Assembly: GCF_000153405.2 (NCBI RefSeq)
Contig: NC_020802.1
Location: 143,883 to 207,882 of the forward strand
DNA length: 64,000 nucleotides
DNA from: Psychromonas sp. CNPT3
Lineage (GTDB): Bacteria; Pseudomonadota; Gammaproteobacteria; Enterobacterales; Psychromonadaceae
Reading direction: 5' to 3'
The position numbers were made by a program, and so were the translations under genes. This document shows, in pieces, positions 11,885-63,187 of the stretch. The notes under the pieces were generated by a model. That model did no database searches, was not told where the DNA came from, and saw only the letters and a program-made list of their open reading frames with translations. Each line of letters starts with the position of its first letter. The first letter of the stretch is position 1.

Positions 11885-12046
11885 AATACCTCTTTTGACA
11901 ATCTTGGTTAATTTATAGAGAATGCAGTGTAACGGAAAAGTTATTTAATAGTAAAAGTAAAAGTAAAAGAGCTCTTTTATTTCTCTTTTTATGTTCGGTT
12001 GATTTTTAACTTTATACAGAGATAAAGTTATTTTTTGGGGTGTTAC

Positions 12047-47570: not shown

Positions 47571-49361
47571 TCAAGCTAACGTTTTGATTCGCTGTAACGC
47601 ATCTAATAATTGTGTTTTATCTATTTCACCTAATAAGCGTAAATGACGTAACTCTTTGCCGTCTTTATCTAAAAACAAAATGGCGGGAGGTCCGAAAATT
47701 TGCTTATTATCAAGCCATTTACTTTGCGCATCTGTTGGTTTGCTAATATCAAATTGCAGGGCGTTAAAAGCAGTAAAGGCGGCGCGGACGTCGAGATCTT
47801 GAAAGACTGTTTTATCCATTACTTTACATGATGCGCACCAATCAGCAGAAATATCGAGGATCGTGATTTGTTTGTTGAGTTGTGCTTTTTTTATATTTTC
47901 TTGAATTTCAATCAAGGTACTCACTTTAGTAAAAAGGGGCTTGTTAGGTGTTGTAACGAAACTTGGCATGTCGTCTTTGTGGTATATGTTTTGTAACGGA
48001 TCTAAAGGATCATGTGCGCCTGTCATTGCCCCACAAAACAGTGCTATCCCATATAAGAGAAGCACAAACGCACCTGCTTTACGTAAGCGTTGACGAGCAT
48101 TTATGGCGTTTTCTAATGCGCCATAGTGTATTGCAAGCGTGAGAGTAAGTGCCGCCCATAAAGATAAGATCACGACGTCGCTACTAAAACGACTGACTAA
48201 TACAATGCCAACCGCCAGTAACATTACGCCAAAGAGTTGTTTGACCGCAACCATCCAAGGACCATTTTTAGGTAAGAATTTCCCACCCGTGGTGCCGATG
48301 ATCAAAAGCGGTATGCCCATCCCCAGTGCCATTGTAAATAAGGCCAACCCACCAAACATCCAATCTTGGGTACTTGATACATACAGTAAAGCGCCCGCTA
48401 AAGGTGCTGAAACACAAGGAGAGACCACTAAGGCCGCCAGTGCGCCCATGATAAAGATGCTGATAGTAGTGCCACCCTTTATTTTTTGGGAGCGACTATT
48501 TAAGTAAGTTTGCAGGCGAGCGGGGAGTTGTAACTCATAAACACCAAACATGGCTAAGGCAAGGCCGACAAAGATAAGGGCAAACAGGCAAAGCACCCAC
48601 GTTTGTTGCATTGCTGCTTGTAAATTCATGCTTTGACCCAATGTCGCCGTGAGGATGCCCGCGCACGCATAGCTTGTTGCCATACCTAAAACATAAGCTA
48701 AGGCGATTTTAAAACCGCGCCAGCCACTCATTTTACCTTTTTGGCCACCTAAAATAGAGGCTAAAATAGGGATCATAGGCAGAACGCAGGGTGTCAATGC
48801 AAGCCCTAAACCTAGCACAAAGAAGAGTAATAAAGCCTGCCAAATATTACTTTCTTCTAATAAAAGAGATAAACCGGTAGCATCATTTTTTAAGGGTGAA
48901 GAGAGGATGTTTTGCGGGCTATCTGCATTTAAAATGGCGATATTAGCGCGAGAGGTGATAGTTTGAACATCAATGTTTCGGCTTTGTGGTAAGTAGCATA
49001 AACCCGCGTCAGAGCAACCTTGGTAACGTAATTTAACCTGTCCTTGACCTGTAAAAGCAATGCGAATAGAAAAAGGTTTTGCGTAGATATTAACCTTACC
49101 ATAGGTCAAATCTTCTTTTGGAGTCGCCGGCTCTGAATAAATGTGTTCACCGAGCATTAAGGTGTCGGATGTGCTTTGTATTGAAAGTCTTTTTTTATAT
49201 AAATAATAACCGGAAGCGGTATCAAATTTAATATGTAATTCATTATTTTCAATGCTGCTGTGCATTGCAAAAGCTTGCTCAACGGATAAAAAAGAGGACT
49301 CTGCTTGTACGTAACTAATGGCGCTGTATAGACAAATAAATAGGCGGATAAAAAATTTCAT
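47571..49361 (-). CDS. dsbD: Thiol:disulfide interchange protein DsbD
   Basis: 596 residues with a signal peptide, an N-terminal periplasmic domain with cysteines in CSDAGLCYLP, an eight-helix membrane domain with inner cysteines (LTPCVLPMIPILAS and VVSPCVSAPLAGALL) and a C-terminal thioredoxin domain with DWCASCKVM. It delivers electrons from thioredoxin to periplasmic thiol proteins. Its ATG overlaps the ApbE gene by 4 bp, so it belongs to the TlpA-DUF4266-DUF3570-ApbE operon. Confidence 0.93.
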   Translation of the reverse strand: MKFFIRLFICLYSAISYVQAESSFLSVEQAFAMHSSIENNELHIKFDTASGYYLYKKRLSIQSTSDTLMLGEHIYSEPATPKEDLTYGKVNIYAKPFSIRIAFTGQGQVKLRYQGCSDAGLCYLPQSRNIDVQTITSRANIAILNADSPQNILSSPLKNDATGLSLLLEESNIWQALLLFFVLGLGLALTPCVLPMIPILASILGGQKGKMSGWRGFKIALAYVLGMATSYACAGILTATLGQSMNLQAAMQQTWVLCLFALIFVGLALAMFGVYELQLPARLQTYLNSRSQKIKGGTTISIFIMGALAALVVSPCVSAPLAGALLYVSSTQDWMFGGLALFTMALGMGIPLLIIGTTGGKFLPKNGPWMVAVKQLFGVMLLAVGIVLVSRFSSDVVILSLWAALTLTLAIHYGALENAINARQRLRKAGAFVLLLYGIALFCGAMTGAHDPLDPLQNIYHKDDMPSFVTTPNKPLFTKVSTLIEIQENIKKAQLNKQITILDISADWCASCKVMDKTVFQDLDVRAAFTAFNALQFDISKPTDAQSKWLDNKQIFGPPAILFLDKDGKELRHLRLLGEIDKTQLLDALQRIKTLA

Positions 49362-50239
49362 AAACTAATAAACTCAGTATTTTGATGTAGATTTAAAGAG
49401 GGATCGATTAAAACAAAGGCTGCATTATCGGGTAATGTTATATCGGGTTTGATGGTAAGAGCGGTGCTATAAATACCGGCTTCTAAGGCGCTATTGGCGA
49501 CCACAGAGGCTGAAATTACTTGTTTGTGAGTGCCCTTACTAGACAATATATGCGAGGTCTGCTCATCGTTAAATTGATAATGACGTTGATAATGCGCCGA
49601 GGTGGTTAATGCTTGGTTTTTGAGTGGCAATGCAAAACGTGTTTTTTGAGGGTTGCTCGGGTCAATAACCGCTACAATAAAATCTTTGCCATTGTCTTTG
49701 CATCCTAAGGTCGCAATATCACCTCCAAAATTAATTAATGCACCGCTAGCGCCAGCTTGCTTTGCAATTTTAATCGCCTCATCAATGGCGTATTCTTTGA
49801 TCACGCCCCCTAAGTCAAATTTGGTTTGAGGGAATTTAAAGGTTAAGGTGAGTTGATTAATCTCCCAGCATGATAGGCCCATAAAAGGTGCTGCTAGCAA
49901 GTAGAGTTCACTGCGTGTTAAGTGTTTGTTTTTTAAATTAAAATCTTTTAAGGTGCCAATGCAAATATCAAAAACCTGATCCGTCAGTTGTGATAAGTGG
50001 CGAACACGCGTTAATATTTTAGCGCATTCGCTATCCACTTTTAGACTGCTTCCATTACGCTGGTTGAGCATTTTATTTAACCATGAAGATGGCTGATGAA
50101 AGTTATATTTTTTTTCTAAGCGCAGAGTATTTACTTGAATATCATGGGCAATCTTTTGTGCCTTGGGAGCATATAAAATTATCTCGCAAGGCACGCTCAT
50201 CGCATTAAAATGATATTTGTACTGCGTATTAAAACTCAT
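49358..50239 (-). CDS. ApbE-like FAD:protein FMN transferase, divergent, no signal peptide
   Basis: 293 residues from the ATG at 50239 (a longer frame begins at 50278). The ApbE fold is recognisable: FDLGGVIKEYAIDEAI (canonical DLGGxxKGYAVD), GALINFGGDIATLG and a C-terminal ALEAGIYSTAL. Several usually conserved positions differ: TSAHY for TSGDY and SHILSS for HIIDP. No N-terminal signal or lipobox is visible, whereas most periplasmic ApbE proteins have one. Known ApbE proteins attach FMN to Ser/Thr in a Dxx(S/T)GAT motif. It overlaps the DUF3570 gene by 11 bp and dsbD by 4 bp. Confidence 0.75.
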   Translation of the reverse strand: MSFNTQYKYHFNAMSVPCEIILYAPKAQKIAHDIQVNTLRLEKKYNFHQPSSWLNKMLNQRNGSSLKVDSECAKILTRVRHLSQLTDQVFDICIGTLKDFNLKNKHLTRSELYLLAAPFMGLSCWEINQLTLTFKFPQTKFDLGGVIKEYAIDEAIKIAKQAGASGALINFGGDIATLGCKDNGKDFIVAVIDPSNPQKTRFALPLKNQALTTSAHYQRHYQFNDEQTSHILSSKGTHKQVISASVVANSALEAGIYSTALTIKPDITLPDNAAFVLIDPSLNLHQNTEFISL

Positions 50240-51494
50240 AAGTAGCGCCCAGGATCCACCATTGGTTCGCATAACCATTGCTTTGTTCGTAGTAGGCGCT
50301 TAAAGCATTTATTCGCCATTTTTTTGCCACTTTTAGGCTAATGCCTAGCTCATAACCATTAGCGCTAAAATCACCTAAACGGAAATCAGAAGATGCATAT
50401 CCAGACTCACTAAAGGCATTATTTGAGGCATTTACATCGCGGTAAAAGTTAGCACCTTGCTGGTTGTACCAAGTATAACCAGGAATAATGCTCAGCCATG
50501 AGGTGATATTAATATTTACTTTGGCGCCCATTTGATGAGCGACAATGCCCCAGTCATCCATAAAAAATTTATAACTCGGTTGCACAGACAGGTAATTATT
50601 TAAGTAGTAAAAACCTCGTACTGAAAATCCACCGAATAAACGTGCATCTGGGCGTGTATCTTGACCTAAAAATATTTCATCATTCTCAATGATGGCATTA
50701 TTATTAATATCTACTTCGCGCAATACTGTCAGATAATGATTACTTAAATAGCCACCTTTATAGCCACCGTATAAAGTGGCGGTCGCATAGAAATGAGGCG
50801 TAAAAACCTGTGACAATCCAACTTCTGCTTCACCTTTAAAAACGCTTTCCCATTGTTGAATATTTTTAAACTCAGAATATTTTTGGAAGGCAAGGGTATT
50901 ATCAAAAAGTAAGGAGCCTGCAAACGTGTAAGAGCGATTTTTACTACTATCGGCATAAATTAAAGCTTGCGCATTAATGCCTTTGCTTTGGTAATCGTCT
51001 TCTTGTGAGTAATTAATACCAAGTGACCATTCATTACGTAGCGTATCGCGATAAGTTAAATTTAAACTACCAGAATAACGAGTATCTTCGAGTTCATAGC
51101 GTTGAATGGCATAACCACTACGATAGGGATCATAACCCGCCCGGATCACCGCATCGGTTTTGGCTTGTGCTTTTCTTGTTTGTAGGGCGCGATCTATGCG
51201 CTCTACATTACTCGATACCGGCGTCGTCGGCCCCCAAGAAGGAGATGCCCCAGAGACGCTGTCATAGCCTAGCTCTGCATTTAATGTCCAATTGAGCCCG
51301 AAGTTTTTTTCTATCGAAAGAATATTATCTGCGGCATTTATTTTGTCGTCGTATTCTTCAAAATTCATGTAATGTAAAGAAATATGATCAGCGCCAGATG
51401 CGCTAGGCACAACAGCGATAGCGCTGATAACAACACTACCTAGCAGAGTTAAGGTTAATTTTTTACTCATTTTACTCGTTACGTCCTTGTTCAT
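50229..51494 (-). CDS. DUF3570 family protein, predicted outer-membrane barrel
   Basis: 421 residues, signal peptide (LTLTLLGSVVISAIAVVPSASG, cleavage near residue 35), then alternating aromatic beta-strands and a C-terminal WILGATYEF with terminal Phe, as in outer membrane beta-barrels. The DUF3570 assignment is by overall pattern and neighbourhood. Residues 78-84, DSVSGAS, closely resemble the ApbE flavinylation motif Dxx(S/T)GAT. Start is the first ATG (51494); MSKKLTLTL at 51470 is the alternative. Located between DUF4266 and ApbE genes. Confidence 0.75.
   Translation of the reverse strand: MNKDVTSKMSKKLTLTLLGSVVISAIAVVPSASGADHISLHYMNFEEYDDKINAADNILSIEKNFGLNWTLNAELGYDSVSGASPSWGPTTPVSSNVERIDRALQTRKAQAKTDAVIRAGYDPYRSGYAIQRYELEDTRYSGSLNLTYRDTLRNEWSLGINYSQEDDYQSKGINAQALIYADSSKNRSYTFAGSLLFDNTLAFQKYSEFKNIQQWESVFKGEAEVGLSQVFTPHFYATATLYGGYKGGYLSNHYLTVLREVDINNNAIIENDEIFLGQDTRPDARLFGGFSVRGFYYLNNYLSVQPSYKFFMDDWGIVAHQMGAKVNINITSWLSIIPGYTWYNQQGANFYRDVNASNNAFSESGYASSDFRLGDFSANGYELGISLKVAKKWRINALSAYYEQSNGYANQWWILGATYEF
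51243..51263 (-). other. Possible flavinylation motif DSVSGAS in the DUF3570 protein
   Basis: Codons 78-84 read D-S-V-S-G-A-S, then P. NqrB-type targets of ApbE read D-x-x-S-G-A-T-P. The acceptor Thr is replaced by Ser84. The gene next door encodes an ApbE homologue. Confidence 0.5.
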
Positions 51495-51554
51495 TAATTA
51501 TTTGTTAACCTGTATTTTTAATAAGTGCATGGTTAGGTGACGGTGTTTATGAGG

Positions 51555-52154
51555 TTAATTGCAACCACAGCCACCACCTGAAACGCCATTGCCACCTAAA
51601 GAGCTTTGCTTGTAAGAAAAAACTTTATTAGAAAATATTCCAAATTCAGGGGCCAGGCCACCAGGTTTCATCTCTTTTTTGGCCAGTACCCCTTTTTCCC
51701 AAGCCTGTACTTTTTTAATGCCGAGCCAGCGCTCAATAAAGGCCAATTTTGAGGGTTTTTCTGCTTGTATTTCTTTATTTTTAATATGAGGCTCTACGAA
51801 ATTAAATACAATCGGCTTAGCAGATGTGTTTTGACTCTTTGTGATTGCCCGCGCAGAGGTGGCAAAAGAGGTACTTTCAGACTGCTGGTAATAGATACGT
51901 TTCGTAGTGGCAACGGATCCCTGCAATTCGTGTGTCTGAGGCACTAATAGCCTTTTTGTCGAGATCTGATAACGAGGATCTGTTTTTTGGATCTTTTTAG
52001 GTTTGATTCTTATCTGCGGAGCGGTGCCTTGCACAATGCTTAGCGTGTCATTATTCAGATTGCTAAGATCTATTGAGAATTGTGCATTGGCAAAAGGAGG
52101 TAATAATAACGTGAGTACCAAGGGCAATGCTTTTATAAGCGCATGCATGTTCAT
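51555..52154 (-). CDS. DUF4266-type exported protein with C-terminal GGGCGCN
   Basis: 199 residues: signal peptide (ALIKALPLVLTLLLPPFANA), a poorly conserved basic middle, and a C-terminal part (WEKGVLAKKEMKP...NKVFSYKQSSLGGNG) ending GGGCGCN. This ending is the signature I associate with DUF4266 proteins, usually only about 70-80 residues, so the protein here has a long N-terminal extension. The terminal CxC could bind metal or be a redox dithiol, which would fit the neighbouring TlpA and DsbD. Function unknown. Starts within the TlpA stop (ATGA). Confidence 0.65.
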   Translation of the reverse strand: MNMHALIKALPLVLTLLLPPFANAQFSIDLSNLNNDTLSIVQGTAPQIRIKPKKIQKTDPRYQISTKRLLVPQTHELQGSVATTKRIYYQQSESTSFATSARAITKSQNTSAKPIVFNFVEPHIKNKEIQAEKPSKLAFIERWLGIKKVQAWEKGVLAKKEMKPGGLAPEFGIFSNKVFSYKQSSLGGNGVSGGGCGCN

Positions 52155-52615
52155 TTATTTTGGCCTAATGTTTTGAGATCGTTTAAGATCACGTCGCGGA
52201 TATTATCGATGGCACCATAGCGTATTTTTAATATTTTACCTTGATAAATATAATAAATCGCAGGCATGCCAATAGGTTGAAAGTCGTTTACTAATATTTG
52301 CTTAGTATCATTGATCACCGCAAAGGTGAGGCCCAAACTTTTTTGAAAGGCGATGCCTACCGCTAAGTCATCATCGATATCGATACCAACAAAGTGAACA
52401 CCCCGATTTTTTAATTGCTCTGCTAGCGTATTAACCTCTGGTAGTTCAGCCCGACATGAAACGCACCACTGCGCAAAAAAATCAACAATAGCCACCTGTT
52501 GGTCATCTAAATGCAACTGTTTTTGTGTTGCAGGGGGTAATGTGTCGCCAACCTGATAGGCAAACACGGGGCTTGATAAAAAAGCGAAAAGAATAAAAAT
52601 GGATCTGAAAAACAT
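52151..52615 (-). CDS. TlpA/ResA-type periplasmic thioredoxin
   Basis: 154 residues from the ATG at 52615, which has AGAGGT 5 nt upstream; the frame opens earlier at 52663 but without a site. A signal peptide (FRSIFILFAFLSSPVFA) precedes a thioredoxin fold with WCVSC at about residues 49-53 and a cis-proline GMPAIYY. The membrane or periplasm-located TlpA/ResA class reduces disulfides in apocytochromes or other exported proteins. Leads the five-gene redox operon; its start is 57 bp after tadG. Confidence 0.85.
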   Translation of the reverse strand: MFFRSIFILFAFLSSPVFAYQVGDTLPPATQKQLHLDDQQVAIVDFFAQWCVSCRAELPEVNTLAEQLKNRGVHFVGIDIDDDLAVGIAFQKSLGLTFAVINDTKQILVNDFQPIGMPAIYYIYQGKILKIRYGAIDNIRDVILNDLKTLGQNK

Positions 52616-52672: not shown

Positions 52673-53887
52673 TTAACGATTATTTTTTAAAGATAAGTGC
52701 GCGCTGGTATCGAGCAACAAGGCCTCTGCAAAGAATTTTTCTAAATCAGATCCATTTTTTGCGTCATAAACAACGCCTTTACCATTACTACCAATGCATT
52801 TTTTAAATTGATCTAGGCGACGTGGACTAAGGCCAAAACCAATAAAGCTGATATCAATATTAAAATCATCTTGAATGCGTTGGCACATGCCACTGCGCAC
52901 TAACTTGTCAAACTGATCACGAGAATCGTCTTCTCCATCGGTAAATAAAATCAAACGTTGGCTTAGTAAAGAGGAAGTCTCTGGTTGTAAATTCCATGCT
53001 TTTTGCCAATTTGGCAACAAGGTGCGTACTCCCCAAATAAAGCCTTGATAAGAAGCGGTAGAGCCTAAAATACTGAGGGAGTCGACATGTTTACGTACTT
53101 TGGATAAATTATTTGTTAAAGGTAAAAGGAGGGAGTACACATTACAGTCATTGATCAAGGACAATGGCTCTTTAGCTCTTATATTGAGCTTACTTGGATG
53201 AGTATCAATATCGGCAACGGTTTGAGCAGTATTAAGGACATTACCCGGATAACTCATGGCATCAACACATAACGCTTTACCTTTTGATTTTGCAAGCCAA
53301 GGGGCGTTGCTAATACTCACGCCCGAAGAAAAAGGCACAATCGAAAAACGTATTTGGGTATTGTTTTTTGTATTTTGTTGTTCAATATTTTGTATCGCTT
53401 GATTAATAATACGTTTGAGCAACCCTATTCGACCCGACATTGAGCCAGAGATATCCAGCACTAAAGATAAATCCATGGGCTTTATCTCCGAGTGTACGGT
53501 CAAGGTGCTAGTGGACTGTATTTGAACGGAGGCATGCACTTTGTTTTGGCTACTTGCTGGCAGTAGATCTTTGAGTAACGGGGTAAATGCGTAACCAATC
53601 TGAATTTTGCACTGTTTTTGGCCACTTAAAAAAGTGCTTTGTGCATTTACATGAGAAATAAAGTTGGGTTTATAGTACTGCGCAAAACCTTGTGTTAACG
53701 ATACATTTGCGCGCTGTGAATATGCACAGGCAATAGAGGATACATCCGAGGCCTGGCTTGCTCTGGTTACCGACAGTAGATACATTGCGGTGAGTATACT
53801 AAGCGCAAGCATGGCGAGCATGGCCGGTAATAAGAAAATAAAGACAATAGAAATACTGCCTTGCTGCGCTTTGATTGTTAAGTTCAC
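52673..53887 (-). CDS. tadG: TadG, von Willebrand A-domain protein of the Tad pilus
   Basis: 404 residues: one N-terminal membrane helix after QQGSISIVFIFLLPAML, then a vWA domain with the MIDAS motif DLSLVLDISGSMSG at about residues 140-153 and a late ILFTDGEDDS. In Tad systems TadG is a membrane-associated factor that may act in surface anchoring or assembly. Overlaps tadF by 4 bp. Confidence 0.85.
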   Translation of the reverse strand: MNLTIKAQQGSISIVFIFLLPAMLAMLALSILTAMYLLSVTRASQASDVSSIACAYSQRANVSLTQGFAQYYKPNFISHVNAQSTFLSGQKQCKIQIGYAFTPLLKDLLPASSQNKVHASVQIQSTSTLTVHSEIKPMDLSLVLDISGSMSGRIGLLKRIINQAIQNIEQQNTKNNTQIRFSIVPFSSGVSISNAPWLAKSKGKALCVDAMSYPGNVLNTAQTVADIDTHPSKLNIRAKEPLSLINDCNVYSLLLPLTNNLSKVRKHVDSLSILGSTASYQGFIWGVRTLLPNWQKAWNLQPETSSLLSQRLILFTDGEDDSRDQFDKLVRSGMCQRIQDDFNIDISFIGFGLSPRRLDQFKKCIGSNGKGVVYDAKNGSDLEKFFAEALLLDTSAHLSLKNNR

Positions 53888-54474
53888 AGCGCTCTCCCGA
53901 TCAAAAGTGAGGCACTTTTATAGAAATTATCATTAAATTTAGCAAGGCCTACTTCGCCCCAAGGCAGGTCCAAGGTGGTCATGTTGCTTAAGCAAACTGT
54001 CACCTGAAAAAGATCTGCATATTTCTGACTATTAACCTCTTTGGTATTACCTAAGGGGCTTAACGCTTTAAGCTCTGCTAAACGCGTATTGGGTTGGCAG
54101 GACGGGCCACTTTGCAACACGCGCACTTTGGTTGCGCCATTTGTTTGTAAGCGTTTTAACTGCGCCAATTGTAAACCCACTATTATTTGATCATTACCTT
54201 GTGTTACAAATTGGTTTTCGGCAATACGTAATAGGTCGTCGCTCATAGCTTGCTGGATCCAGTCGTTTTTACCGACTAAGTCGAGGTTAAAGGGTTCATT
54301 CACGACAATGTTTGTTAATGCATAGGACAACCTGTCTAATTTTGCCTTGAGGCTCAGGGCGACGTTGATTTTAACGCAAAATAAAATCAATACGATAATG
54401 ATCAGGCTTATTATCGGTAGGGCAATAATACTGCTGCCACGCTGCTGATGAGATAAATTAAATAAAGTTTTCAT
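53884..54474 (-). CDS. tadF: TadF-like pseudopilin
   Basis: 196 residues with a type IVb pilin-like N-terminus: QQRGSSIIALPIISLIIIVLILF, in which the usual Glu at +5 of the mature pseudopilin is not present, so it is divergent. Minor pilin-like subunit of the Tad pilus. Overlaps tadE by 17 bp and tadG by 4 bp. Confidence 0.78.
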   Translation of the reverse strand: MKTLFNLSHQQRGSSIIALPIISLIIIVLILFCVKINVALSLKAKLDRLSYALTNIVVNEPFNLDLVGKNDWIQQAMSDDLLRIAENQFVTQGNDQIIVGLQLAQLKRLQTNGATKVRVLQSGPSCQPNTRLAELKALSPLGNTKEVNSQKYADLFQVTVCLSNMTTLDLPWGEVGLAKFNDNFYKSASLLIGRAL

Positions 54475-54928
54475 GGGTTATCAAAATACTACGTTTAAAA
54501 GAGCTTAACTTTGAAAAAGAGAAGCCGGAAAAGGACAGTAATAAAGGCGTATAGGAATAGCTCAAAATATATTTAGCGTAGATTTGGCCATGGTGTACGC
54601 TGTCACTTTGTTGCTTCACTAGTGCTTTAAAATCAGTAAAATATTGGGCGTTGATCGTGATGTTTTTGGCGTTAATTAAAGGCCATTTTTTAGCGTCTAT
54701 CAGTTGCTTTAACTGCGCAGAAACATCACTATTAACGGGCGTCACGATCACTTGGCGAGTGGCATTACTCAATGCGACATCTAACACGCTACTGGTGATC
54801 ATATAGCGGCAAATTTCAAGCATGAGTAAACACATCACAAACAGTGGGATAAAAGTAAAAACAAACTCTAATGTCGCAGCGCCCGATTGCTGCGATCGAA
54901 GTTTTTTAGGGCGTTGTAATAGGCGCAA
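54458..54928 (-). CDS. tadE: TadE-like pseudopilin
   Basis: 156 residues starting with basic residues then QQSGAATLEFVFTFIPLFVMCLLML, where a Gly, then a short spacer and Glu, fits the pseudopilin processing site. Minor pilin needed for Flp pilus assembly in Aggregatibacter. Overlaps tadD by 23 bp, which suggests strong coupling; a start slightly downstream is also possible. Confidence 0.83.
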   Translation of the reverse strand: MRLLQRPKKLRSQQSGAATLEFVFTFIPLFVMCLLMLEICRYMITSSVLDVALSNATRQVIVTPVNSDVSAQLKQLIDAKKWPLINAKNITINAQYFTDFKALVKQQSDSVHHGQIYAKYILSYSYTPLLLSFSGFSFSKLSSFKRSILITHENFI

Positions 54929-55691
54929 AATCTGCTCCTTTTTGAAATTGTTGATAAAACTGCATGTTCTTTTTGAGTTGCGTACTATTTAAGTCTTTAC
55001 TGGCTAATGACTTTGCGCCCTTAAGATTGCCTTGCATAGCAAACGCTAAGGCCAAATTTTGGCGTATTTTTACTGTGCTTTTCCCTGATAAGTAAATGGG
55101 GTAGAGCATCGCAACCCCCTTTTCTGGCTGTTTATCTAAGATCCAAGCTAATGCTAAATTATTGCGATATTGAAGGTTCGCAGGCGTTATCGCCAGCGCA
55201 TTAATAAAGGCGCCACGCGCTAAAGTGAATTTGTCTCCTAAGGCGTAACATAGCCCAAGGCTATTTTGCACTAGCGCATCATTAGGATCTATTTTACTCG
55301 CTTGTTGTAATAACGATAACGCGCTATCGCGTTCAAGGAGCGCTAATTTAGCACGTCCTTGCTCTCCTAATATTTTGGCGGGAACACTGATTTTTTTGGC
55401 ATTAAGTAGGGCGCTGGCTTTATCTAAATAATGTAAAGCAAGTTGTGCATCGGGCATTTGGTTATAGGCACGCCCGATCAAATAGAGTAAGTCAGTATCT
55501 TCTGGTTGTTTAGATAATAGGTCTCGATATAAGGTAATACCTTTATCGATATGTCCGGCTTCTATGGAGATACGCGCTAAATCGCGTTCATCTATTTTTT
55601 TGTTTTGCTGCGCGTCCGTGCTCACGCAGGCAGAGAGCGTAAAACAAAATACAACGCTTAGCAGAGTGTTTGAAATGCGCTTTAAAATCAT
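54906..55691 (-). CDS. tadD: TadD, TPR lipoprotein
   Basis: 261 residues with a lipobox (LSVVFCFTLSAC) and several tetratricopeptide repeats (for example DTDLLYLIGRAYNQMPDAQLAL, NALVQNSLGLCYALGDKFTLARGAFINAL). Expected to act as a pilotin-like partner of the secretin. Overlaps tadC and tadE. Confidence 0.82.
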   Translation of the reverse strand: MILKRISNTLLSVVFCFTLSACVSTDAQQNKKIDERDLARISIEAGHIDKGITLYRDLLSKQPEDTDLLYLIGRAYNQMPDAQLALHYLDKASALLNAKKISVPAKILGEQGRAKLALLERDSALSLLQQASKIDPNDALVQNSLGLCYALGDKFTLARGAFINALAITPANLQYRNNLALAWILDKQPEKGVAMLYPIYLSGKSTVKIRQNLALAFAMQGNLKGAKSLASKDLNSTQLKKNMQFYQQFQKGADFAPITTP

Positions 55692-56554
55692 AGTTCCCCC
55701 AAGGTGCTTAAGAGTGAAATAAAGGTAGGTGCAACGATCAGCACGACGACGGGTAACATGACTAATAGTACTAAAGGTAATGCCATTTTCGCGGGGATCT
55801 TTCCGACTTTTTCTTCTAGCGATAGATATTGTTTTTGACGGCTATCTGTTGCTATCAAACGCAGCGTTTGCGCAATAGATCCTCCGTATTTTTCAGCTTG
55901 TGATAAAGAGATCACCAGATTTTCTATCTCTACGACAGCGCAGCGATTGGCTAAGTTTTTTAATGCGCGTGAGCGTGGTTCGAGTAAACGAAGCTCGACT
56001 TCTGTTATTAGCCATTGGCGTGATAACTCAGGGCAAATCTGATACATTTCTTGGCCGACACGGCCAAACATGGCTTCAAGTGTTAGCCCAGATTCTACAC
56101 AAATAACCATTAAATCAAGCGCGTCAGGTGTTGCTAATGCAATATTTGAAGTGATACGTTTAGCGCGAGCAATAAGCCATCTTTCACACACCATGCCACT
56201 TATCATTGCAACAATGGCAGCTTCAGCAAGCACTAAAGAGGTTAAAGAAAAATGTTTATAGCCAAGATAAGCTCCAAAGCAAAGCAACATAAAAACAAGT
56301 TTAAACAGGCGAAAATAGAGGCTTGCATTGTCGTTATTAAAGCCTGCCCGTAGTAGCTGTATGTTGAGTTTTTTGTTCACTTTTAAAGTGGGTAAAAACG
56401 CGAACAAAGAGGTGCTTTTTGGTGAAAAGTTAGGGTTTAAAATACTCAATCTTTGCACAATCAGATCGCGTTGATGGGCAAGCTGATAGCATAATATGCT
56501 GCTCAGGATCCCTAAGCTTAAAAAGAGTAAGGTACCCATAAACAATACAGTCAT
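55688..56554 (-). CDS. tadC: TadC, inner-membrane platform protein
   Basis: 288 residues of the T2SSF family: N-terminal and C-terminal membrane segments around a helical domain, with CVESGLTLEAMFGRVGQEM and LSQAEKYGGSIAQTLR. With TadB it forms the platform on which TadA acts. 4-bp overlaps with tadB and tadD. Confidence 0.88.
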   Translation of the reverse strand: MTVLFMGTLLFLSLGILSSILCYQLAHQRDLIVQRLSILNPNFSPKSTSLFAFLPTLKVNKKLNIQLLRAGFNNDNASLYFRLFKLVFMLLCFGAYLGYKHFSLTSLVLAEAAIVAMISGMVCERWLIARAKRITSNIALATPDALDLMVICVESGLTLEAMFGRVGQEMYQICPELSRQWLITEVELRLLEPRSRALKNLANRCAVVEIENLVISLSQAEKYGGSIAQTLRLIATDSRQKQYLSLEEKVGKIPAKMALPLVLLVMLPVVVLIVAPTFISLLSTLGEL

Positions 56555-57477
56555 TGTGCTCTTACCTTGGTTAATACATTAATGATACCTAACCCTAAGG
56601 CCATGCTACCGATAACGTACATTAAAACGTCGTTTCCGGTGGGGGTGTCGGTGAGCACTGCAAAAGAGGCGGGTGATTTGAAATACATCACGCTAATTAA
56701 ACATAAGGGTAAGCATGCGAGTACTAACGCTGTCATGCGAGGCTCGGCAGTTAAACTTTTTATTTTCATTTTAATGGCATGATTGTTATGTAAAGTGCGA
56801 CTTAAGCTGTGTAGCACTTCACGCAGTTGTCCGCCATTTTCTTGGTTTAAAATCAGTGCAACACTAAAAAAATGGAATCCTGAATAAGGGAGTCGATAGG
56901 TGCTTTGTTGTAATGCTTGTTTAAGGCTTATCCCTATTTCTAAGCGATCACGTAATAAAGAAAACTCATGCGCGAGTAAGCCCTGTTGATATTCAGGCAC
57001 TTGCGCAATGGCTTGTGGCACTGAAATTCCGGCAGCCACTGCACGTGAAATTTGCTCAATGACCTGTGGGAAGCTATGTTCAAATTCTTTTATTTGTTGC
57101 GCGCGAATAAACCAATAACTGATCAAAAAAGCGATAACAGGCACAACAACTAAAAGTAGCAAGCGACTGTAGATATTAAATGAGGCACTGAAATACCAAG
57201 TCACGCCGCAAATCAATAAAAGAGATAAGATCAGTTTTTTCCGATTGTGTGCAAATAAAGCATCAATACGCGTACTGATATTTTTGAATAAATGCGCCAA
57301 AGGACTTAATTTTTTTTGCCAATGAAACAGATGCGAGTCTGCGCGCACCTGTGTGTGCTTGGATAATTGACGTAAACGTTTTTTGACGCAATGCGATTGT
57401 TGATATTCTTGCCAACCTAAATATACCGATACCAGTATAAAAAGAGAGAAAACAAACAGGGCTGCGAGAATGATCAT
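56551..57477 (-). CDS. tadB: TadB, inner-membrane platform protein
   Basis: 308 residues of the T2SSF family: membrane segments near the start and end and a soluble helical GSPII-F domain with AVAAGISVPQAIAQV and LRDRLEIGISLKQAL. Partner of TadC and TadA. Overlaps tadA by 4 bp. Confidence 0.88.
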   Translation of the reverse strand: MIILAALFVFSLFILVSVYLGWQEYQQSHCVKKRLRQLSKHTQVRADSHLFHWQKKLSPLAHLFKNISTRIDALFAHNRKKLILSLLLICGVTWYFSASFNIYSRLLLLVVVPVIAFLISYWFIRAQQIKEFEHSFPQVIEQISRAVAAGISVPQAIAQVPEYQQGLLAHEFSLLRDRLEIGISLKQALQQSTYRLPYSGFHFFSVALILNQENGGQLREVLHSLSRTLHNNHAIKMKIKSLTAEPRMTALVLACLPLCLISVMYFKSPASFAVLTDTPTGNDVLMYVIGSMALGLGIINVLTKVRAQ

Positions 57478-58841
57478 GCGTGTATACCCATCGCGCTTTT
57501 GAGTTGCTTGGTTAAATTGTAGTAATGGGCTTTTTCTGCAAAACGCGGTAACGTTTTACTACAGATAAATTGGCCAGAAATATTACCTTCTAAATCTTGA
57601 GATTGCTTTTCAAAATGGAATAAGTCTTGGCTTAAATACTGCTCGCCTTCAAGTCCGACTAATTCGGTGATATTTACAACACGTCTTTTACCATCACGCA
57701 TGCGCTCAATTTGGATCACAATATTAATGGTACTGGCAATTTGTCTGCGTAGGGCCGTTAAAGGCAATTGTGCTTCGGACATCAGGAGCATGTTTTCTAA
57801 ACGGATCAAGGCATCAATAGGGCTATTCGCATGCAGTGTACACATTGAGCCATCATGGCCTGTATTCATTGCTTGCATCATATCAAAGGCTTCTGCGCCG
57901 CGGATCTCACCTAAAATAATACGATCGGGGCGCATACGTAATGCATTTTTAAGCAAGATAGATTGATCTATCGCCACTAAGCCTTCCATATTGCTGGGAC
58001 GTGTTTCGATGCTGACTACATGGGGTTGCATAAGTTTTAATTCAGCTGCATCTTCAATGGTAATAATGCGCTCATCGGGTGAAATGCCAAACGAGATAGC
58101 GTTAAGCAGTGTGGTTTTCCCTGCGCCAGTCCCGCCGGAGATTAAAACATTCACGCGGCAACGTGCAATAACATCAAGTAATGATGCCATCTCATCTGAC
58201 ATGGCGCCAAGGGCTGCTAACTGTTGCAAACTATGCTTGTTATCGCTGAATTTACGAATAGAAATACAGGTGCCATTGAGCGCTAATGGTGGGATCAAAA
58301 TATTGACGCGACTCCCATCGGCTAAACGTGCATCAACCATCGGACTACTTTCATCAATGCGTCTGCCAACGCCACTGACTATTCTGCGTGCTAAATTTAG
58401 AAGGTGATCTTCATTTCTAAAACGAATATCAGTGCGCTTTAATTTACCATGGGTTTCAATAAAAACCTCATTAGGTCCATTTACCATAATATCGGTGACG
58501 TCGGGATCATCGAGTAAACATTGTAAGGGGCCCAAGCCGAGCATTTCATTAACTAATTGATCGCTAATCTTTTTTTGCTCTTGTGCGCCAATCGGAAATT
58601 GATGTTGGTAAGCAATCTCACCGACGGCTTCAAAAGTGCGCTTTTCTAGCTCTTCTCGTGATAGTTTTATCACCACAGCAGGCTCAATTGCTTGCATTAC
58701 TTCACTTTGGATCAAGCTAAAGCGTGATAACTGGCGCGCGACATCTGTTGCCGATTTGTTTTCGGGCGCGCGCGTGGCTTGCTGCGGGTTATTGTTGACG
58801 ACGGGCAACGTGTGGCTTGGGTTAGAAGGCTGTCCAAACAT
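57474..58841 (-). CDS. tadA: TadA, pilus assembly ATPase
   Basis: 455 residues from the ATG at 58841, in a TAATG arrangement with the tadZ stop and with AAGGAA 6 nt upstream; an earlier ATG at 58859 is possible. Secretion-ATPase motifs: Walker A SGGTGAGKTTLLNA, Asp box (ERIITIEDAAELKL), Walker B RPDRIILGEIRGAEAFDMM and a His box. Powers extension and perhaps retraction of the Flp pilus. Confidence 0.95.
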   Translation of the reverse strand: MFGQPSNPSHTLPVVNNNPQQATRAPENKSATDVARQLSRFSLIQSEVMQAIEPAVVIKLSREELEKRTFEAVGEIAYQHQFPIGAQEQKKISDQLVNEMLGLGPLQCLLDDPDVTDIMVNGPNEVFIETHGKLKRTDIRFRNEDHLLNLARRIVSGVGRRIDESSPMVDARLADGSRVNILIPPLALNGTCISIRKFSDNKHSLQQLAALGAMSDEMASLLDVIARCRVNVLISGGTGAGKTTLLNAISFGISPDERIITIEDAAELKLMQPHVVSIETRPSNMEGLVAIDQSILLKNALRMRPDRIILGEIRGAEAFDMMQAMNTGHDGSMCTLHANSPIDALIRLENMLLMSEAQLPLTALRRQIASTINIVIQIERMRDGKRRVVNITELVGLEGEQYLSQDLFHFEKQSQDLEGNISGQFICSKTLPRFAEKAHYYNLTKQLKSAMGIHA

Positions 58842-60061
58842 TATGCTTTCCTTAGCCATTGTTGCAAGAGAGAGGGCTGCGCGCTGACGCTGTTCCCTGC
58901 TATCAAGGCATGTAATTGTTTAAAGGCTAAGCGTAACTTTTTATGGCGCGTAAAGGCGGGTACGCCAAGTGTGGTTGAAGCCAGCATGTCATCAGGGCAG
59001 TATGGGATCTCAATATCGGGTTTTTTACCCAGTGTTTGTGCAACATCAATCGCTGAAATCAAAGATGATTTTTCAGGTTTTGTGTGATTTAAAACTAATA
59101 TAATGCGCAAGTTATCACGGTTTTTTAATTTATCTAATAATTGCTGAGTATGACGAATTGAAGATAACGTGGGTTGCATTACCACTAAACAAACATCCGC
59201 ACTTGCCAGTGCTTCAAAGCCAAGACTGTCGCGTAAACTAAAAGAGGGGATATCCCAGAGGAGATAATGCACTTGTTTTTGGCAAAAAAGAGAGATCTCA
59301 TCAAAGGCTAACAGTCCCGGCCAGAAAGATTGTTCGAGTTGTTGGCTATAGCCACTAAATAGCACCAAGTTATCGGTTACTTTAATTGCGCTACGTTTAA
59401 AAACCAGGGGCTCTAAGCGATCTGGAAATTGAAGCATTTCAATTAAACGGTTATTCGCACTGACATTAAAATGTAAGTCTAAATCCCCGCTCACAAAATC
59501 CAAATCAGCACAGGCAACCTGCTGTTTTTTATCTTCGGCTAATTGCCAAGCAAGGTTACTAAGGATAGTACTACAACCCGCGCCCCCTTTTGCACTGGCA
59601 ACGCTGATACGTAGACCTTGTTGTTTTTTATTGGTGCCACTAATTTCGGTATTGGCATTTAAAACAAGGTGAATAGCTTCATTTAACAAATCAGCTTGTA
59701 AGGGTAATGTTAGATACTCCGTTACCCCTATTTTTAATAAATCACGATAAAAATTAATACTGTCATTTTCGCCCATTACAATTAAAGGTAGGTTTAATGT
59801 TGCAGTGAGTTGGCGGATTAATTTTTTTGCATCCATATCATTAAAGGCACGTAAATCCATGATTAAAAAGGATGGTTGTCCATATGTCGCACAATGATCT
59901 TGTATATTTTGAGGATCATTTTGATAGTGAAAGTGTTGCGTTATCCCCATGCTTTTCAAATGAGATGAAAATAATCTGGCTAAATCCGCGTCTTTTGTCA
60001 CATAAAGACAAGATGCATTAGACAATGAAGAGGTACTTATATTGGCATTTTTTTGCATCAT
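58841..60061 (-). CDS. tadZ: TadZ/CpaE, ParA-like localisation protein
   Basis: 406 residues. N-terminal atypical receiver-like domain (LIMDLRAFNDMDAKKLIRQL) and a C-terminal MinD/ParA ATPase domain with deviant Walker A SAKGGAGCSTILSNLAWQL and LLWDIPSF. In Tad systems it marks the assembly site at a cell pole. Start at 60061 or the adjacent ATG (60058), following AGGAAA. Confidence 0.88.
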   Translation of the reverse strand: MMQKNANISTSSLSNASCLYVTKDADLARLFSSHLKSMGITQHFHYQNDPQNIQDHCATYGQPSFLIMDLRAFNDMDAKKLIRQLTATLNLPLIVMGENDSINFYRDLLKIGVTEYLTLPLQADLLNEAIHLVLNANTEISGTNKKQQGLRISVASAKGGAGCSTILSNLAWQLAEDKKQQVACADLDFVSGDLDLHFNVSANNRLIEMLQFPDRLEPLVFKRSAIKVTDNLVLFSGYSQQLEQSFWPGLLAFDEISLFCQKQVHYLLWDIPSFSLRDSLGFEALASADVCLVVMQPTLSSIRHTQQLLDKLKNRDNLRIILVLNHTKPEKSSLISAIDVAQTLGKKPDIEIPYCPDDMLASTTLGVPAFTRHKKLRLAFKQLHALIAGNSVSAQPSLLQQWLRKA

Positions 60062-60696
60062 TAGTTTCCTGTGGATCCAGACATCGCACCCGAAATAGGT
60101 GATGATTGATTGAGTCGTTGCGTCGGTTGGCTGTAGTAACTCTCAATAATAGAGACTGCTTTTCTGCCTTCCATCGGTGCTAATGTGGCACTGCGTAATA
60201 ATTCTCTCGGGTTGGCAATCATTAACGCGAGTGCATTACTATTAGCACAACCAAAATTAGGATTTCGTTTAAAATTATTGAGAATGATACTGGCATCTTT
60301 TTGAGCTTGGCAGTGCCGCGCTAAGGCGCGGTAAGATTCAACAACAAAGGTAAAATCTGCTGCTGATGCCTGTTGTTTTTCTTGTGGCCCGCTGAATATC
60401 TCTAGTTGATCTGCCGTGATACGCCATGTTTTTAAGAGTTTTTGGAGTTGTTTTTTTTGCGCCATGCCCGCACGAGTATGTAACGTTAAACGCACTCTTA
60501 AATTACTTGGGTCGCCTCGTTTGGAGAAAAACTGCTGTAATGTTTTTTTGTCGAGCGTATTTAATGTATTGCCTTGTAGTGTTAAGGCAAACTGATCCGT
60601 TAATACTTGTACTGGGATCTCGGGTGCATGGGGCATCGGTTGGCTGGTACACGCTAATAAGGCGCTACTGAGTAATATTGTGAGTAATAGTCGCAT
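60061..60696 (-). CDS. CpaD-family pilus lipoprotein
   Basis: 211 residues with a lipobox (ILLSSALLAC) and a CpaD-like domain; NPNFGCANSNALALMIANPRELLRSATLAPMEGRKA is the characteristic CpaD motif (cysteine with N/D/A-L-A pattern). CpaD proteins lie in the outer membrane or periplasm and support the secretin. One gene between rcpA and tadZ, the position of rcpB/tadZ-adjacent genes in Pasteurellaceae. Confidence 0.8.
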   Translation of the reverse strand: MRLLLTILLSSALLACTSQPMPHAPEIPVQVLTDQFALTLQGNTLNTLDKKTLQQFFSKRGDPSNLRVRLTLHTRAGMAQKKQLQKLLKTWRITADQLEIFSGPQEKQQASAADFTFVVESYRALARHCQAQKDASIILNNFKRNPNFGCANSNALALMIANPRELLRSATLAPMEGRKAVSIIESYYSQPTQRLNQSSPISGAMSGSTGN

Positions 60697-60704
60697 GAGA
60701 TACC

Positions 60705-62084
60705 TTAGTAATAAAATCCGTTATCGCCCAGCAAACGAGGCTGAGAGGGGGTAGAAGAGAATGATCCCATAGTAGTGGGTGTCACTTTTTTATGAGGCCA
60801 AGCGAGCAAACGCTCAATATCGCTAAGAGGAAGAAGGCCATCGGTCGGCAAAGAAAATTTATCGCTTCGTGTCGGCTGCACTAAATAGACAGTGGCGATA
60901 ATGATAAGCTCAGTTTCTTCACGTTGAAATTCACTGGATCTAAATAACGCACCTAAAATAGGAATATCACCAAGTAGGGGTATTTTTTGTAATTGCTCTA
61001 TATCTTTAGATTGTAATAATCCGCCAATGGCAAAACTTTGGCCACTGGCGAGTTCAATCGTGGTCGATGCTTTACGGGTAATAAAGACAGGTAAAGAAGA
61101 GCCACCTATCTGTACATTGGTACGCGGTGCAATGGTGCTAACTTCAGGCTCTATTTGCAGACGGATACGATTAGCACTTAGTACGGTCGGCTTAAAATCT
61201 AAACGAACACCAAAAGGTTTATAGATAATATTGGCGCTATCGCCAAAGACAACGGGAAGAGGGATCTCACCACCCACTAAAAAGGATGCACGCTCGCCAC
61301 TGATAGCGGTTAGGTTGGGCTCGGCTAAAATAGAGATAAGGCCGTTGCTGGCTAAGGCATCAATCATTATTGAAAGGTCTGGAAACTTAACGTTGGGTAA
61401 CCAATTTTTAGTGCCAAAGGTACCTGAAATGGTGCCAATATTTTGCGCGCCCCACTTGATCCCTAATTTATTAGAGACATTACGTGACACTTCAGCAATG
61501 CGCACACGTAAATTGACTTGCGTCGGCATCGTGATCACTAACTGATTGATTAATTCTTGTGTATTTTGGGTAGATTGTGCGGACTCTCCGCCCTGTTGGT
61601 CGTCTTGAGCGCCACCTTCAGTAGCAGCACCTGCACTTTCTGATTTCCCTCCATTACTTGAGACGTAACCTTCGGCTAAACGCACAATTTTCTCAGCAAT
61701 ACTGGGGGTGCTGACTTGGCCTTTTAAAAAAAGTTTACCTGCAGTCGATTCGCTGTGCACCTGTGCATTTGGAAATTCATGTTTTATCAGGGCATTGAGC
61801 TCCTGCACATTATGATTTACTTTGACCGTGGCGGAATAAATCACATTTTCACGTGCATCGAGAACATATAAAGACGTTGAACCCACTCGTTTCCCAAAAA
61901 TCATTATTTTTGTGTTGGTTAAGGTTTGGTAATCGGCCACGCGATCACTGGCAATAAAAATAGATTTTGCTGTTTTAGGCAACACTAATAATTTTGCTTG
62001 ATCAAGTGTGACATTTAAGGTTTTAGCTTGTGCACTAAATGCGAGTAGAAAAAATAGAGATCCTGCTATGATGCTTTTTACCAT
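60705..62084 (-). CDS. rcpA: RcpA/CpaC outer-membrane secretin
   Basis: 459 residues with signal peptide (IIAGSLFFLLAFSAQA), an N-terminal pilus-secretin domain (VTLDQAKLLVLPKTAKSIFIAS), a BON/N1-like domain (about 100-150) and a secretin C-domain (AEPNLTAISGERASFLVGGEIPLP, FAIGGLLQSKDIEQLQKIPLLGDIPILGALFRS). Forms the channel for the Flp pilus. Overlaps rcpC by 7 bp. Confidence 0.92.
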   Translation of the reverse strand: MVKSIIAGSLFFLLAFSAQAKTLNVTLDQAKLLVLPKTAKSIFIASDRVADYQTLTNTKIMIFGKRVGSTSLYVLDARENVIYSATVKVNHNVQELNALIKHEFPNAQVHSESTAGKLFLKGQVSTPSIAEKIVRLAEGYVSSNGGKSESAGAATEGGAQDDQQGGESAQSTQNTQELINQLVITMPTQVNLRVRIAEVSRNVSNKLGIKWGAQNIGTISGTFGTKNWLPNVKFPDLSIMIDALASNGLISILAEPNLTAISGERASFLVGGEIPLPVVFGDSANIIYKPFGVRLDFKPTVLSANRIRLQIEPEVSTIAPRTNVQIGGSSLPVFITRKASTTIELASGQSFAIGGLLQSKDIEQLQKIPLLGDIPILGALFRSSEFQREETELIIIATVYLVQPTRSDKFSLPTDGLLPLSDIERLLAWPHKKVTPTTMGSFSSTPSQPRLLGDNGFYY

Positions 62085-62938
62085 TGTTCGCCACTCACTG
62101 TGTTTAAGACTTGTTTCTGTTTTGCTCTAAATTCAATTAAACCGATATCAGGCTGAACTTGTTTAATTTCAGGGAAAATATCGCCAATATCAACTTGTGT
62201 GTTTGCTAATATACTATTATCACTGCTATTTCTAAGTAGCATTGATAGCGTGCCCAACTGATTAGCTAAAATAACCGTATTGGCCTGTGCGGGTAGCACC
62301 TCTAAAGTGACCGCACTTTTTTCAGGGAGCATGCCTTTGTTTCTTTTTTTCTCTTCTTGGTAACGATCAATTTGTAGTGCATCGTTAAGGGCTAAAACGC
62401 GTACATTTTGCACAATGGTTTTTACATATAAGCTACGCGTTTCATTGCCTGTCGAGCGTAATTCTTTTTCTTTAGAAGCAAGCAGTAATACATCGACATG
62501 ATCCCCTGGGCGAATAAGACCCGAATTTGCGGTGATGTGATCAACGCCAACGGAGACAGCTCGGTATCCCGGGCGAAGTAGAACAGACAAGAACGCGCCA
62601 TCTTCAAGAGTTAAGAAATCCGATTGACTCATAATATGGCCGGCCGGAAGATCGCCGGTCACAATACTTTTTTTATAAGCTTTATTGTTAAAGTCTATTT
62701 TTTGAATGTAATCAATTTGCTCGGCTAAATCACTTTCAGGTACTTTTTTCCACGCAAAGATAGAGGCGCTATACAGGCGACCTGATTTTATTTCTTGAGA
62801 ACTTACAAGAATAGTAAGTGTTTTATTTTCTTCTTTTATCAGCGCCGGCGCGGTAGGCGAAGACACACTCATAAATAGTCCCAAGAGACCGATGAGTGAA
62901 ATAAAAACAGAAAAATACATTAAACGTTTTGCTGTCAT
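62078..62938 (-). CDS. rcpC: RcpC/CpaB, SAF-domain pilus assembly protein
   Basis: 286 residues: N-terminal membrane segment or signal, a SAF domain (KKVPESDL..., LRPGYRAVSVGVDHITANSGLIRPGDHVDVLLL) and a C-terminal RcpC/CpaB domain. Periplasmic assembly factor of Tad pili. It begins 60 bp after flp. Confidence 0.88.
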   Translation of the reverse strand: MTAKRLMYFSVFISLIGLLGLFMSVSSPTAPALIKEENKTLTILVSSQEIKSGRLYSASIFAWKKVPESDLAEQIDYIQKIDFNNKAYKKSIVTGDLPAGHIMSQSDFLTLEDGAFLSVLLRPGYRAVSVGVDHITANSGLIRPGDHVDVLLLASKEKELRSTGNETRSLYVKTIVQNVRVLALNDALQIDRYQEEKKRNKGMLPEKSAVTLEVLPAQANTVILANQLGTLSMLLRNSSDNSILANTQVDIGDIFPEIKQVQPDIGLIEFRAKQKQVLNTVSGEQW

Positions 62939-62998: not shown

Positions 62999-63187
62999 TT
63001 ATTTTTCTTGAATGCTTTCAAGTTTGGTGACGACACTTTCAAAGGTACCGTTGATAGCCTGTGTTAATGAGCCGTCTTCACCTAAAAAGTTAAACATTAC
63101 AATCGACATAGCGGCGGCTAAAATAGCGTACTCAATGGCAGCAGCACCACGTTGTTTACTTTTGTTATTTATTTTTTTATTGTTCAT
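62999..63187 (-). CDS. flp: Flp type IVb pilin
   Basis: 62 residues. Basic leader NKKINNKSKQRG, then AAAIEYAILAAAMSIVMFNFLG: cleavage after the Gly with Glu and Tyr at mature +5/+6 is the Flp signature. Structural subunit of the Tad pilus. No prepilin peptidase gene (tadV/cpaA) lies between it and rcpC. A 16-bp hairpin upstream isolates it from the preceding gene, so it probably has its own promoter. Confidence 0.93.
   Translation of the reverse strand: MNNKKINNKSKQRGAAAIEYAILAAAMSIVMFNFLGEDGSLTQAINGTFESVVTKLESIQEK

Follow-up and report, generated by a model that had tools for sequence, protein, structure and literature searches.

Does an envelope redox operon that follows a pilus locus act together with the pilus, or does it only lie beside it? 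The question arises in a 64,000-nucleotide stretch of Psychromonas sp. CNPT3 (NC_020802.1, positions 143,883 to 207,882; from here on, the window), where genes for a TlpA-like thioredoxin, a DUF4266 protein, a DUF3570 protein, a member of the ApbE flavin transferase family and DsbD stand directly behind the tadG gene of a Tad (tight adherence) pilus locus. There is hardly any doubt that these five genes represent the known DsbD/DUF3570 flavinylation system. The set itself is not new, since a cluster of DsbD, DUF3570, DUF4266, thioredoxin and ApbE was described in 2021 (Meheust 2021, eLife 10:e66878; PMC8238504). What is new, as far as the literature searched shows, is a fixed Tad partner and a separate class of ApbE, both unreported there. 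The Tad locus and the redox module almost certainly form one inherited unit, and a real functional coupling of the module to Tad is fairly probable, function as opposed to linkage alone being the main point at issue. The DUF3570/DUF4266 cluster has been without a physiological anchor since 2021, and a subtype of it that is always joined to one kind of Tad pilus, in Moritella, Vibrio-like genomes and the window's genome, would supply one, namely surface attachment. The module and the pilus genes are laid out in the window as follows.

52151..52615, minus strand: periplasmic thioredoxin of the TlpA/ResA type (Pfam AhpC-TSA/thioredoxin), its N-terminus signal peptide-like, with a single CxxC (WCVSC)
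51555..52154, minus strand: DUF4266 protein of the Tad type (PF14086), with a signal peptide-like start, no lipobox, a variable linker of ~100 residues and a C-terminal DUF4266 domain
51561..51569, minus strand: C-terminal CxC of DUF4266 (...GGGCGCN-stop)
50229..51494, minus strand: DUF3570 (PF12094, 352 bits), predicted outer-membrane barrel and ApbE substrate
51243..51263, minus strand: predicted flavinylation site DSVSGAS in DUF3570, D78-S84, acceptor Ser84
49358..50239, minus strand: ApbE (FAD:protein FMN transferase family; Pfam ApbE, 138 bits), without a signal peptide
49475..49477, minus strand: codon of ApbE Gly255, which aligns with the conserved metal-ligand Asp of solved ApbE structures
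47571..49361, minus strand: full-length DsbD with N-terminal domain, transmembrane domain and C-terminal thioredoxin domain (NCBIfam NF001419, 547 bits, cut-off 330)
52673..53887, minus strand: TadG-like VWA protein
53884..58859, minus strand: tadF, tadE, tadD, tadC, tadB and tadA
58841..62938, minus strand: tadZ, rcpB, rcpA and rcpC
62999..63187, minus strand: Flp pilin of 62 aa with a processing-site-like GAAAIEYA (open reading frame at 2882-3070 of locus L141)

The initial annotation placed the five genes exactly to the base, together with their overlaps (4 bp for TlpA/DUF4266, 11 bp for DUF3570/ApbE and 4 bp for ApbE/DsbD), the 60-bp gap between DUF4266 and DUF3570, and the 57 bp between the TadG-like gene and the tlpA-like start; as it had stated, no terminator-like site was found when one was looked for in that last interval. 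DUF3570 homologs begin at the ATG at 51470. Pfam scores are above cut-off for DUF3570 (352 bits), DUF4266 (60), ApbE (138, cut-off 25.6) and DsbD_TM (280), and the TlpA-like protein reaches 42/41 bits with AhpC-TSA/thioredoxin. TadE and TadF also exceed their Pfam cut-offs, the TadG-like protein passes via its VWA domain, and the locus comprises the Flp pilin, TadA ATPase, RcpA secretin, TadB/C and TadE/F pseudopilins of a Tad system. TadV prepilin peptidase was not seen beside flp, no genome-wide search for TadV having been made. The conserved unit is larger than five genes and extends upstream past the window edge, through flp and two lipoprotein genes (LipoB and LipoP). The annotation's description of the operon holds, but it missed these lipoproteins, the loss of the ApbE signal peptide with its accompanying Asp-to-Gly change, and the loss of the DUF4266 lipobox. 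Its remark that it knew of no function established for the gene set, and the impression that the set is new, need correcting in view of the 2021 description (PMC8238504), in which the co-occurrence of DUF3570, DUF4266, ApbE and TlpA that it proposed to check is already published; we find this co-occurrence again here. The fusion to a Tad locus is stronger than it claimed.

Co-inheritance of the module with one group of Tad loci

We searched 395 genomes of the order with a profile built from four Tad-type DUF3570s, designated A2. Fifteen genomes score at 681-828 bits, followed by G167 at 328 and others at 240, 208 and <=69. The fifteen consist of the window's genome, nine of genus g2 (Moritella) and five of genus g21, which, to judge from its two-chromosome layout, appears to belong to the Vibrionaceae; over 369 genomes of the class, the only match at that level is the window's own genome. 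All 15 linked regions read rcpCAB-tadZABCDEFG-tlpA-duf4266-duf3570-apbE-dsbD on one strand, with G121, at a contig end, readable from tadZ on. Spacing is nearly constant, mostly 44-92 bp for tadG-tlpA, -4 or -1 for tlpA/duf4266 and -4 for apbE/dsbD. That this gene order recurs with near-identical overlaps in Vibrio sp. Of7-15 (L029) and in the other 14 linked genomes is far beyond chance. Genome G167, fragmented and divergent, agrees, with tadC-G-tlpA-duf4266-duf3570 on one contig (L105) and LipoB-rcpC-rcpA-rcpB-tadZ-tadA on another (L218).

The converse search gives the same set. When the 395 genomes are searched with the window's TadA, its 14 highest matches besides itself (575-698 bits, 61-74% identity) fall in exactly the remaining 14 linked genomes; after them the score drops to 459 bits. 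In 19 unlinked Tad loci, many of them from the same genomes, the 4-6 kb read on the downstream side of tadG contain none of the five module genes; the resulting contrast, 15/0 for linked against 0/19 for unlinked loci, has a Fisher value of 5e-10, which is descriptive, as the loci share ancestry and the unlinked set is not random. Trees of TadA, RcpA, TlpA, ApbE, DsbD, TadB and TadD agree in their main groups; in those of DUF3570 and TadG the positions of the window and Of7-15 shift slightly. Distances between pairs of DUF3570, ApbE, DsbD and TlpA sequences follow those of TadA with r = 0.95-0.98 (TadG, 0.98). Like the widespread Tad loci for Flp pili, the linked loci carry flp, rcpC, rcpA, rcpB, tadZ and tadA-G in standard order; unlike them, they have a distinct group of TadA (61-74% identity to that of the window, others <=57%), the redox operon behind, and LipoB and LipoP upstream of flp. 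A module built permanently into one kind of Tad locus, here and in marine relatives, suggests that these cells combine redox chemistry with attachment to surfaces.

The predicted DUF3570 flavin site and the ApbE class

In the 2021 study, DUF3570 of Chlorobium luteolum was shown to carry ApbE-attached flavin, the protein having been modified inside E. coli cells in an insoluble, signal-less form, and a route from DsbD to thioredoxin to flavin was proposed for the cluster (PMC8238504). The system in the window shares with this one the clustering of the same five families, the C-terminal CxC of DUF4266 and the [ST]GA[ST] site in DUF3570, the type of motif at which the C. luteolum protein was flavinylated. 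It differs in being tied to one kind of Tad locus, in a DUF4266 that has a long linker and no lipobox, and in its two upstream lipoproteins. The thioredoxin family of the published cluster is named as PF13899 (PMC8238504); the best families for the thioredoxin-like protein in the window are PF00578 and PF00085. In the literature searched, that paper is the sole source on DUF3570 and DUF4266, its main text does not mention pili, and no link of Tad with ApbE or flavinylation was found.

A further difference lies in the flavin site. ApbE-associated DUF3570s were reported to have two flavin sites (PMC8238504), whereas all 16 distinct Tad-type sequences scored have exactly one DxVSGAS, along with no Cys and a C-terminal Phe or Tyr. 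As most other DUF3570s collected also have one site, two sites appear not to define the system. The flavin-site Ser is invariant among the Tad-type sequences (A2). Across the family, an [ST]GA[ST] motif goes with a neighboring ApbE on the same strand (54 of 61 against 4 of 17; Fisher P = 5e-7, phylogeny ignored). Active flavinylation is likely. The initial annotation's proposal that ApbE flavinylates the barrel is upheld in its first half by the C. luteolum experiment, the invariant DxVSGAS and the association of motif with ApbE; as for the barrel itself, the C-terminal Phe/Tyr and a hydrophobicity alternation modestly above that of shuffled sequences speak for a putative outer-membrane beta-barrel, and a profile search of the PDB with DUF3570 returned no match up to E = 1.

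Every DUF4266 collected ends in GCGC plus one residue, and in most copies this CxC holds the sole Cys residues. In canonical clusters the protein is a short lipoprotein; in Tad-linked ones it is non-lipidated and bears a long variable linker. Since DUF3570 is free of Cys and DUF4266 has the CxC tail, thiol chemistry must enter via DUF4266. The idea of a bufferin or copper-RiPP (ribosomally synthesized and post-translationally modified peptide) for the CxC tail found no support in the literature searched.

Several DUF3570s depart from the usual pattern. In one group the flavin site is replaced by SSAS or a similar sequence and an adjoining ApbE is missing (L011, L012, L013, L015, L017, L018, L019, L078, L081, L088, L089 and L090); this is probably a non-flavinylated branch of the family. 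Those of L065, L061, L071 and L062 have TGSS or SGSS at the site yet do adjoin ApbE, and may reveal what ApbE tolerates. A DUF3570 at 5498-6757 of L107 has three clustered D..SGAS motifs (WDAVSGASPTWDSVSGASAAEVSDAVSGAS), and a 912-residue frame in L221 (G715:C1, ~2067376-2068914) joins DUF3570 to a His/Met-rich second domain, a fusion possibly linked to copper or another metal.

The ApbE of the module belongs to a class of its own. In ApbE structures a conserved Asp binds metal; by alignment, EADAWDT of E. coli ApbE corresponds to EAGIYST in the window, with Gly255 replacing the Asp. The catalytic His (SHIL) is conserved in all ApbEs surveyed. Among 79 ApbEs with complete N-termini, all 48 linked to DUF3570 lack a hydrophobic N-terminal segment and carry Gly instead of the Asp, whereas all 31 others have a signal-like segment and Asp, the signal peptide being called by a hydropathy proxy and not by SignalP. 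A possible bias of the comparators toward top-scoring types linked to NQR (Na+-translocating NADH:quinone oxidoreductase) was checked with 18 further lower-scoring and less similar ApbEs, which have 16 Asp, 1 Glu, 1 Gln and no Gly. Two of these 18 also have no signal-like segment, so that signal-peptide loss alone is not specific to the DUF3570-linked class. Nor is the loss peculiar to Tad-type ApbE, a possibility that was rejected, for it holds for all DUF3570-linked ApbEs surveyed; those from other proteobacterial groups have the Gly as well. The window's ApbE begins 14 residues before the core, with no hydrophobic segment there, and the copies of Moritella and Vibrio Of7-15 have an in-frame stop so close upstream that a signal peptide would not fit. 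The one other ApbE of the window's genome (L030), NQR-linked and extracytosolic, shares the fold family and the catalytic His; lying next to nqrF, it is a lipoprotein with the metal-ligand Asp, and the window's ApbE has neither lipobox nor Asp.

These features raise the puzzle of how a signal-peptide-less ApbE modifies an exported, presumably outer-membrane protein, and whether it needs the usual metal site. Because the enzyme has no signal peptide, the flavin would probably be attached in the cytoplasm, ahead of Sec export; the modification of signal-less, insoluble DUF3570 in E. coli (PMC8238504) fits cytoplasmic modification of an unfolded chain. As given in the passage of PMC6028853 that cites Bonardi et al. 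2011, SecYEG passes substrates with rigid attached groups of up to ~2.4 nm, and on this figure an FMN-bearing chain could go through Sec. The case for cytoplasmic flavinylation of DUF3570 is evenly balanced; if true, the sequence of steps would be unusual for an envelope protein with covalently bound flavin.

Lipoproteins upstream of flp

Two genes upstream of flp complete the conserved unit, the second lying past the window.

63277..64000, minus strand: C-terminal portion of LipoB (lipoprotein-like, 1068 aa), which continues to ~66483, past the window (L141 3160-6366)
~66673-68847, past the window: LipoP, 724 aa, divergent (L141 6556-8730)

Both are present in the window's genome and in the 13 linked genomes fetched upstream with intact sequence; G089 has interrupted frames in this region, and G121 has both lipoproteins on a separate contig. 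LipoB (~1060-1640 aa, with Lcl_C and BNR/CHB_HEX-type repeats) is oriented like the operon; LipoP (~670-725 aa) diverges from it. The repeated chitobiase-C/BNR-like segments of LipoB differ in number between genera, and LipoB is a candidate surface adhesin next to flp.

A LipoP profile matches 18 of the 395 genomes, namely the 15 linked ones, G167, G269 and G024. G167 and G269 also hold intermediate DUF3570 clusters without Tad (L106 and L107), in which LipoP relatives of 1022-1029 aa and ~630 aa adjoin DUF3570 and carry DASSGAS/DTVSGAS and DAVTGAT/DAITGAT, fitting the ApbE consensus. The alignment column of this ApbE-type site is occupied in Tad-linked LipoP by an Asp/His-rich (DDH-rich) run (DHDDDHDDDHDDDH... 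in the window's genome), a match that is suggestive only, similarity being weak beyond the N-terminal 200 residues. This replacement of an ApbE-type site by an Asp/His-rich stretch makes metal a candidate acceptor. In G024, a Moritella genome that lacks the system, C-terminal relics of both LipoP and LipoB (L216 10311-12441, G024:C1) persist, bordered by the two genes that also flank the block in G049, and every tad and redox gene has been lost. The large lipoproteins of the intermediate clusters (L106 9097-12186 and 14239-16131; L107 7638-10706 and 3592-5487), with their D..[ST]GA[ST] sites and propeller-like repeats, are possible new ApbE substrates.

A proposed relay and its alternatives

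DsbD and TlpA families are established thiol carriers. Because of this, and because CxC supplies the only Cys of most DUF4266 copies and DUF3570 is Cys-free with a flavin site, a relay can be proposed: DsbD would take reducing power from cytosolic thioredoxin (Trx) across the inner membrane to the TlpA-like thioredoxin, which would reduce the C-terminal CxC of DUF4266; this CxC, on its long flexible linker, would carry electrons to the FMN that ApbE attaches to Ser84 of DUF3570, and from the putative barrel they would reach an acceptor at or beyond the outer membrane, possibly a metal. LipoP, as a surface lipoprotein, may bind the metal reduced or taken up through its Asp/His-rich stretch, and the Tad pilus and LipoB would anchor the cell at the surface where the redox chemistry happens. 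Large thioredoxin reductases have a mobile C-terminal redox tail, which the DUF4266 tail resembles in principle, by analogy only. A Tad-linked variant of the DsbD/DUF3570 system with carriers in this order is moderately probable, and outward flow of electrons is favored to a similar, modest degree; a metal as acceptor is doubtful. The initial annotation had TlpA and DsbD mature the Cys-tailed protein, which is not borne out as worded, the published and more economical reading being a relay in which CxC cycles. TlpA-like proteins are 54-61% identical across linked loci and have two Cys in most copies, three in four Vibrio-like ones.

Several observations weigh against this relay. ApbE lacks the metal-ligand Asp and has TSAH instead of TSGD, so that its activity is not assured. 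AlphaFold2 models from shallow alignments are too poor to use, with pLDDT 40 for ApbE, and 34 for DUF3570 (four sequences), where neither fold nor site can be read. DsbD of the module is the only classical DsbD in the window's genome and may for that reason also have general duties. The DDH stretch of LipoP is of low complexity and variable length, which makes metal binding a guess.

The changes in ApbE could also mean that it is a pseudo-enzyme, that DUF3570 bears no flavin and that the system is purely thiol-based. The Asp-to-Gly change at the metal ligand, TSAH for TSGD and the missing signal peptide would all fit. However, every DUF3570-linked ApbE surveyed has this Gly, also in clusters where TSGD is intact, so that Gly255 need not mean loss of activity. 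Motif-less DUF3570s are mostly without ApbE, the flavin-site Ser does not vary, and flavinylation of DUF3570 by its cognate ApbE is published (PMC8238504; the Asp/Gly residue of that ApbE falls outside our comparison), all of which leaves a pseudo-enzyme very unlikely. It is highly improbable, too, that the module is a Dsb system dedicated to Tad, in which TlpA and DsbD reduce or isomerize disulfides of TadG, TadF and RcpB, with DUF3570 and ApbE as accessories. The module genes do lie directly behind tadG, and TadG-like proteins of nearly all linked loci have six conserved Cys, but unlinked TadG, TadF and RcpB have similar Cys counts without the module, and ApbE, DUF3570 and DUF4266 would have no part to play yet are never absent. 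We considered whether linked loci encode Tad proteins with unusually many Cys and rejected it; counts are alike in linked and unlinked loci, which argues against a Tad-specific disulfide role.

Most relevant to the question of function is simple hitch-hiking: a single joining of the redox cluster to a Tad locus, after which the whole block was passed on, by descent or transfer, with no functional tie to the pilus. The joined loci comprise one TadA group and one DUF3570 group, which indicates a single origin; only 1 of 24 genomes of the window's genus has the block, which points to transfer or loss; and canonical DUF3570 clusters function without Tad. Yet the module has remained joined to Tad in at least three families, at protein identities of 40-70%, and none of the 15 complete loci shows them apart; in G024, LipoP and LipoB relics persist within the same flanks but neither Tad nor redox genes do. 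Moreover, changes that accompany Tad (DUF4266 with linker and no lipobox, DDH-rich LipoP) are not seen in canonical clusters. Hitch-hiking is accordingly an unlikely account, and we retain the Tad-linked relay.

Porin-cytochrome conduits of the MtrCAB type combine an inner-membrane donor, a periplasmic carrier, an outer-membrane protein and a surface lipoprotein. The proposed relay parallels them in working plan only; the window's system has no heme proteins, its electron carriers would be flavin and thiols, and the two are not homologous as far as tested. In its fullest form the proposal would make the system a pilus-coupled flavin counterpart of these conduits, in which a cell held by Tad passes electrons through DsbD, TlpA, CxC and barrel to LipoP-bound metal, the barrel being flavinylated in the cytoplasm by an ApbE class without metal ligand and exported through Sec as a covalent flavoprotein. 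This extension is speculative, and improbable as a whole.

Elsewhere in the window, the one other DsbD-like protein of the genome is encoded at 12035-14200 (721-724 aa; 721 from TTG), with ScsB-like length and domain order; the gene upstream of it (9318-11312) encodes a permease-like protein that has a His/Asp-rich loop.

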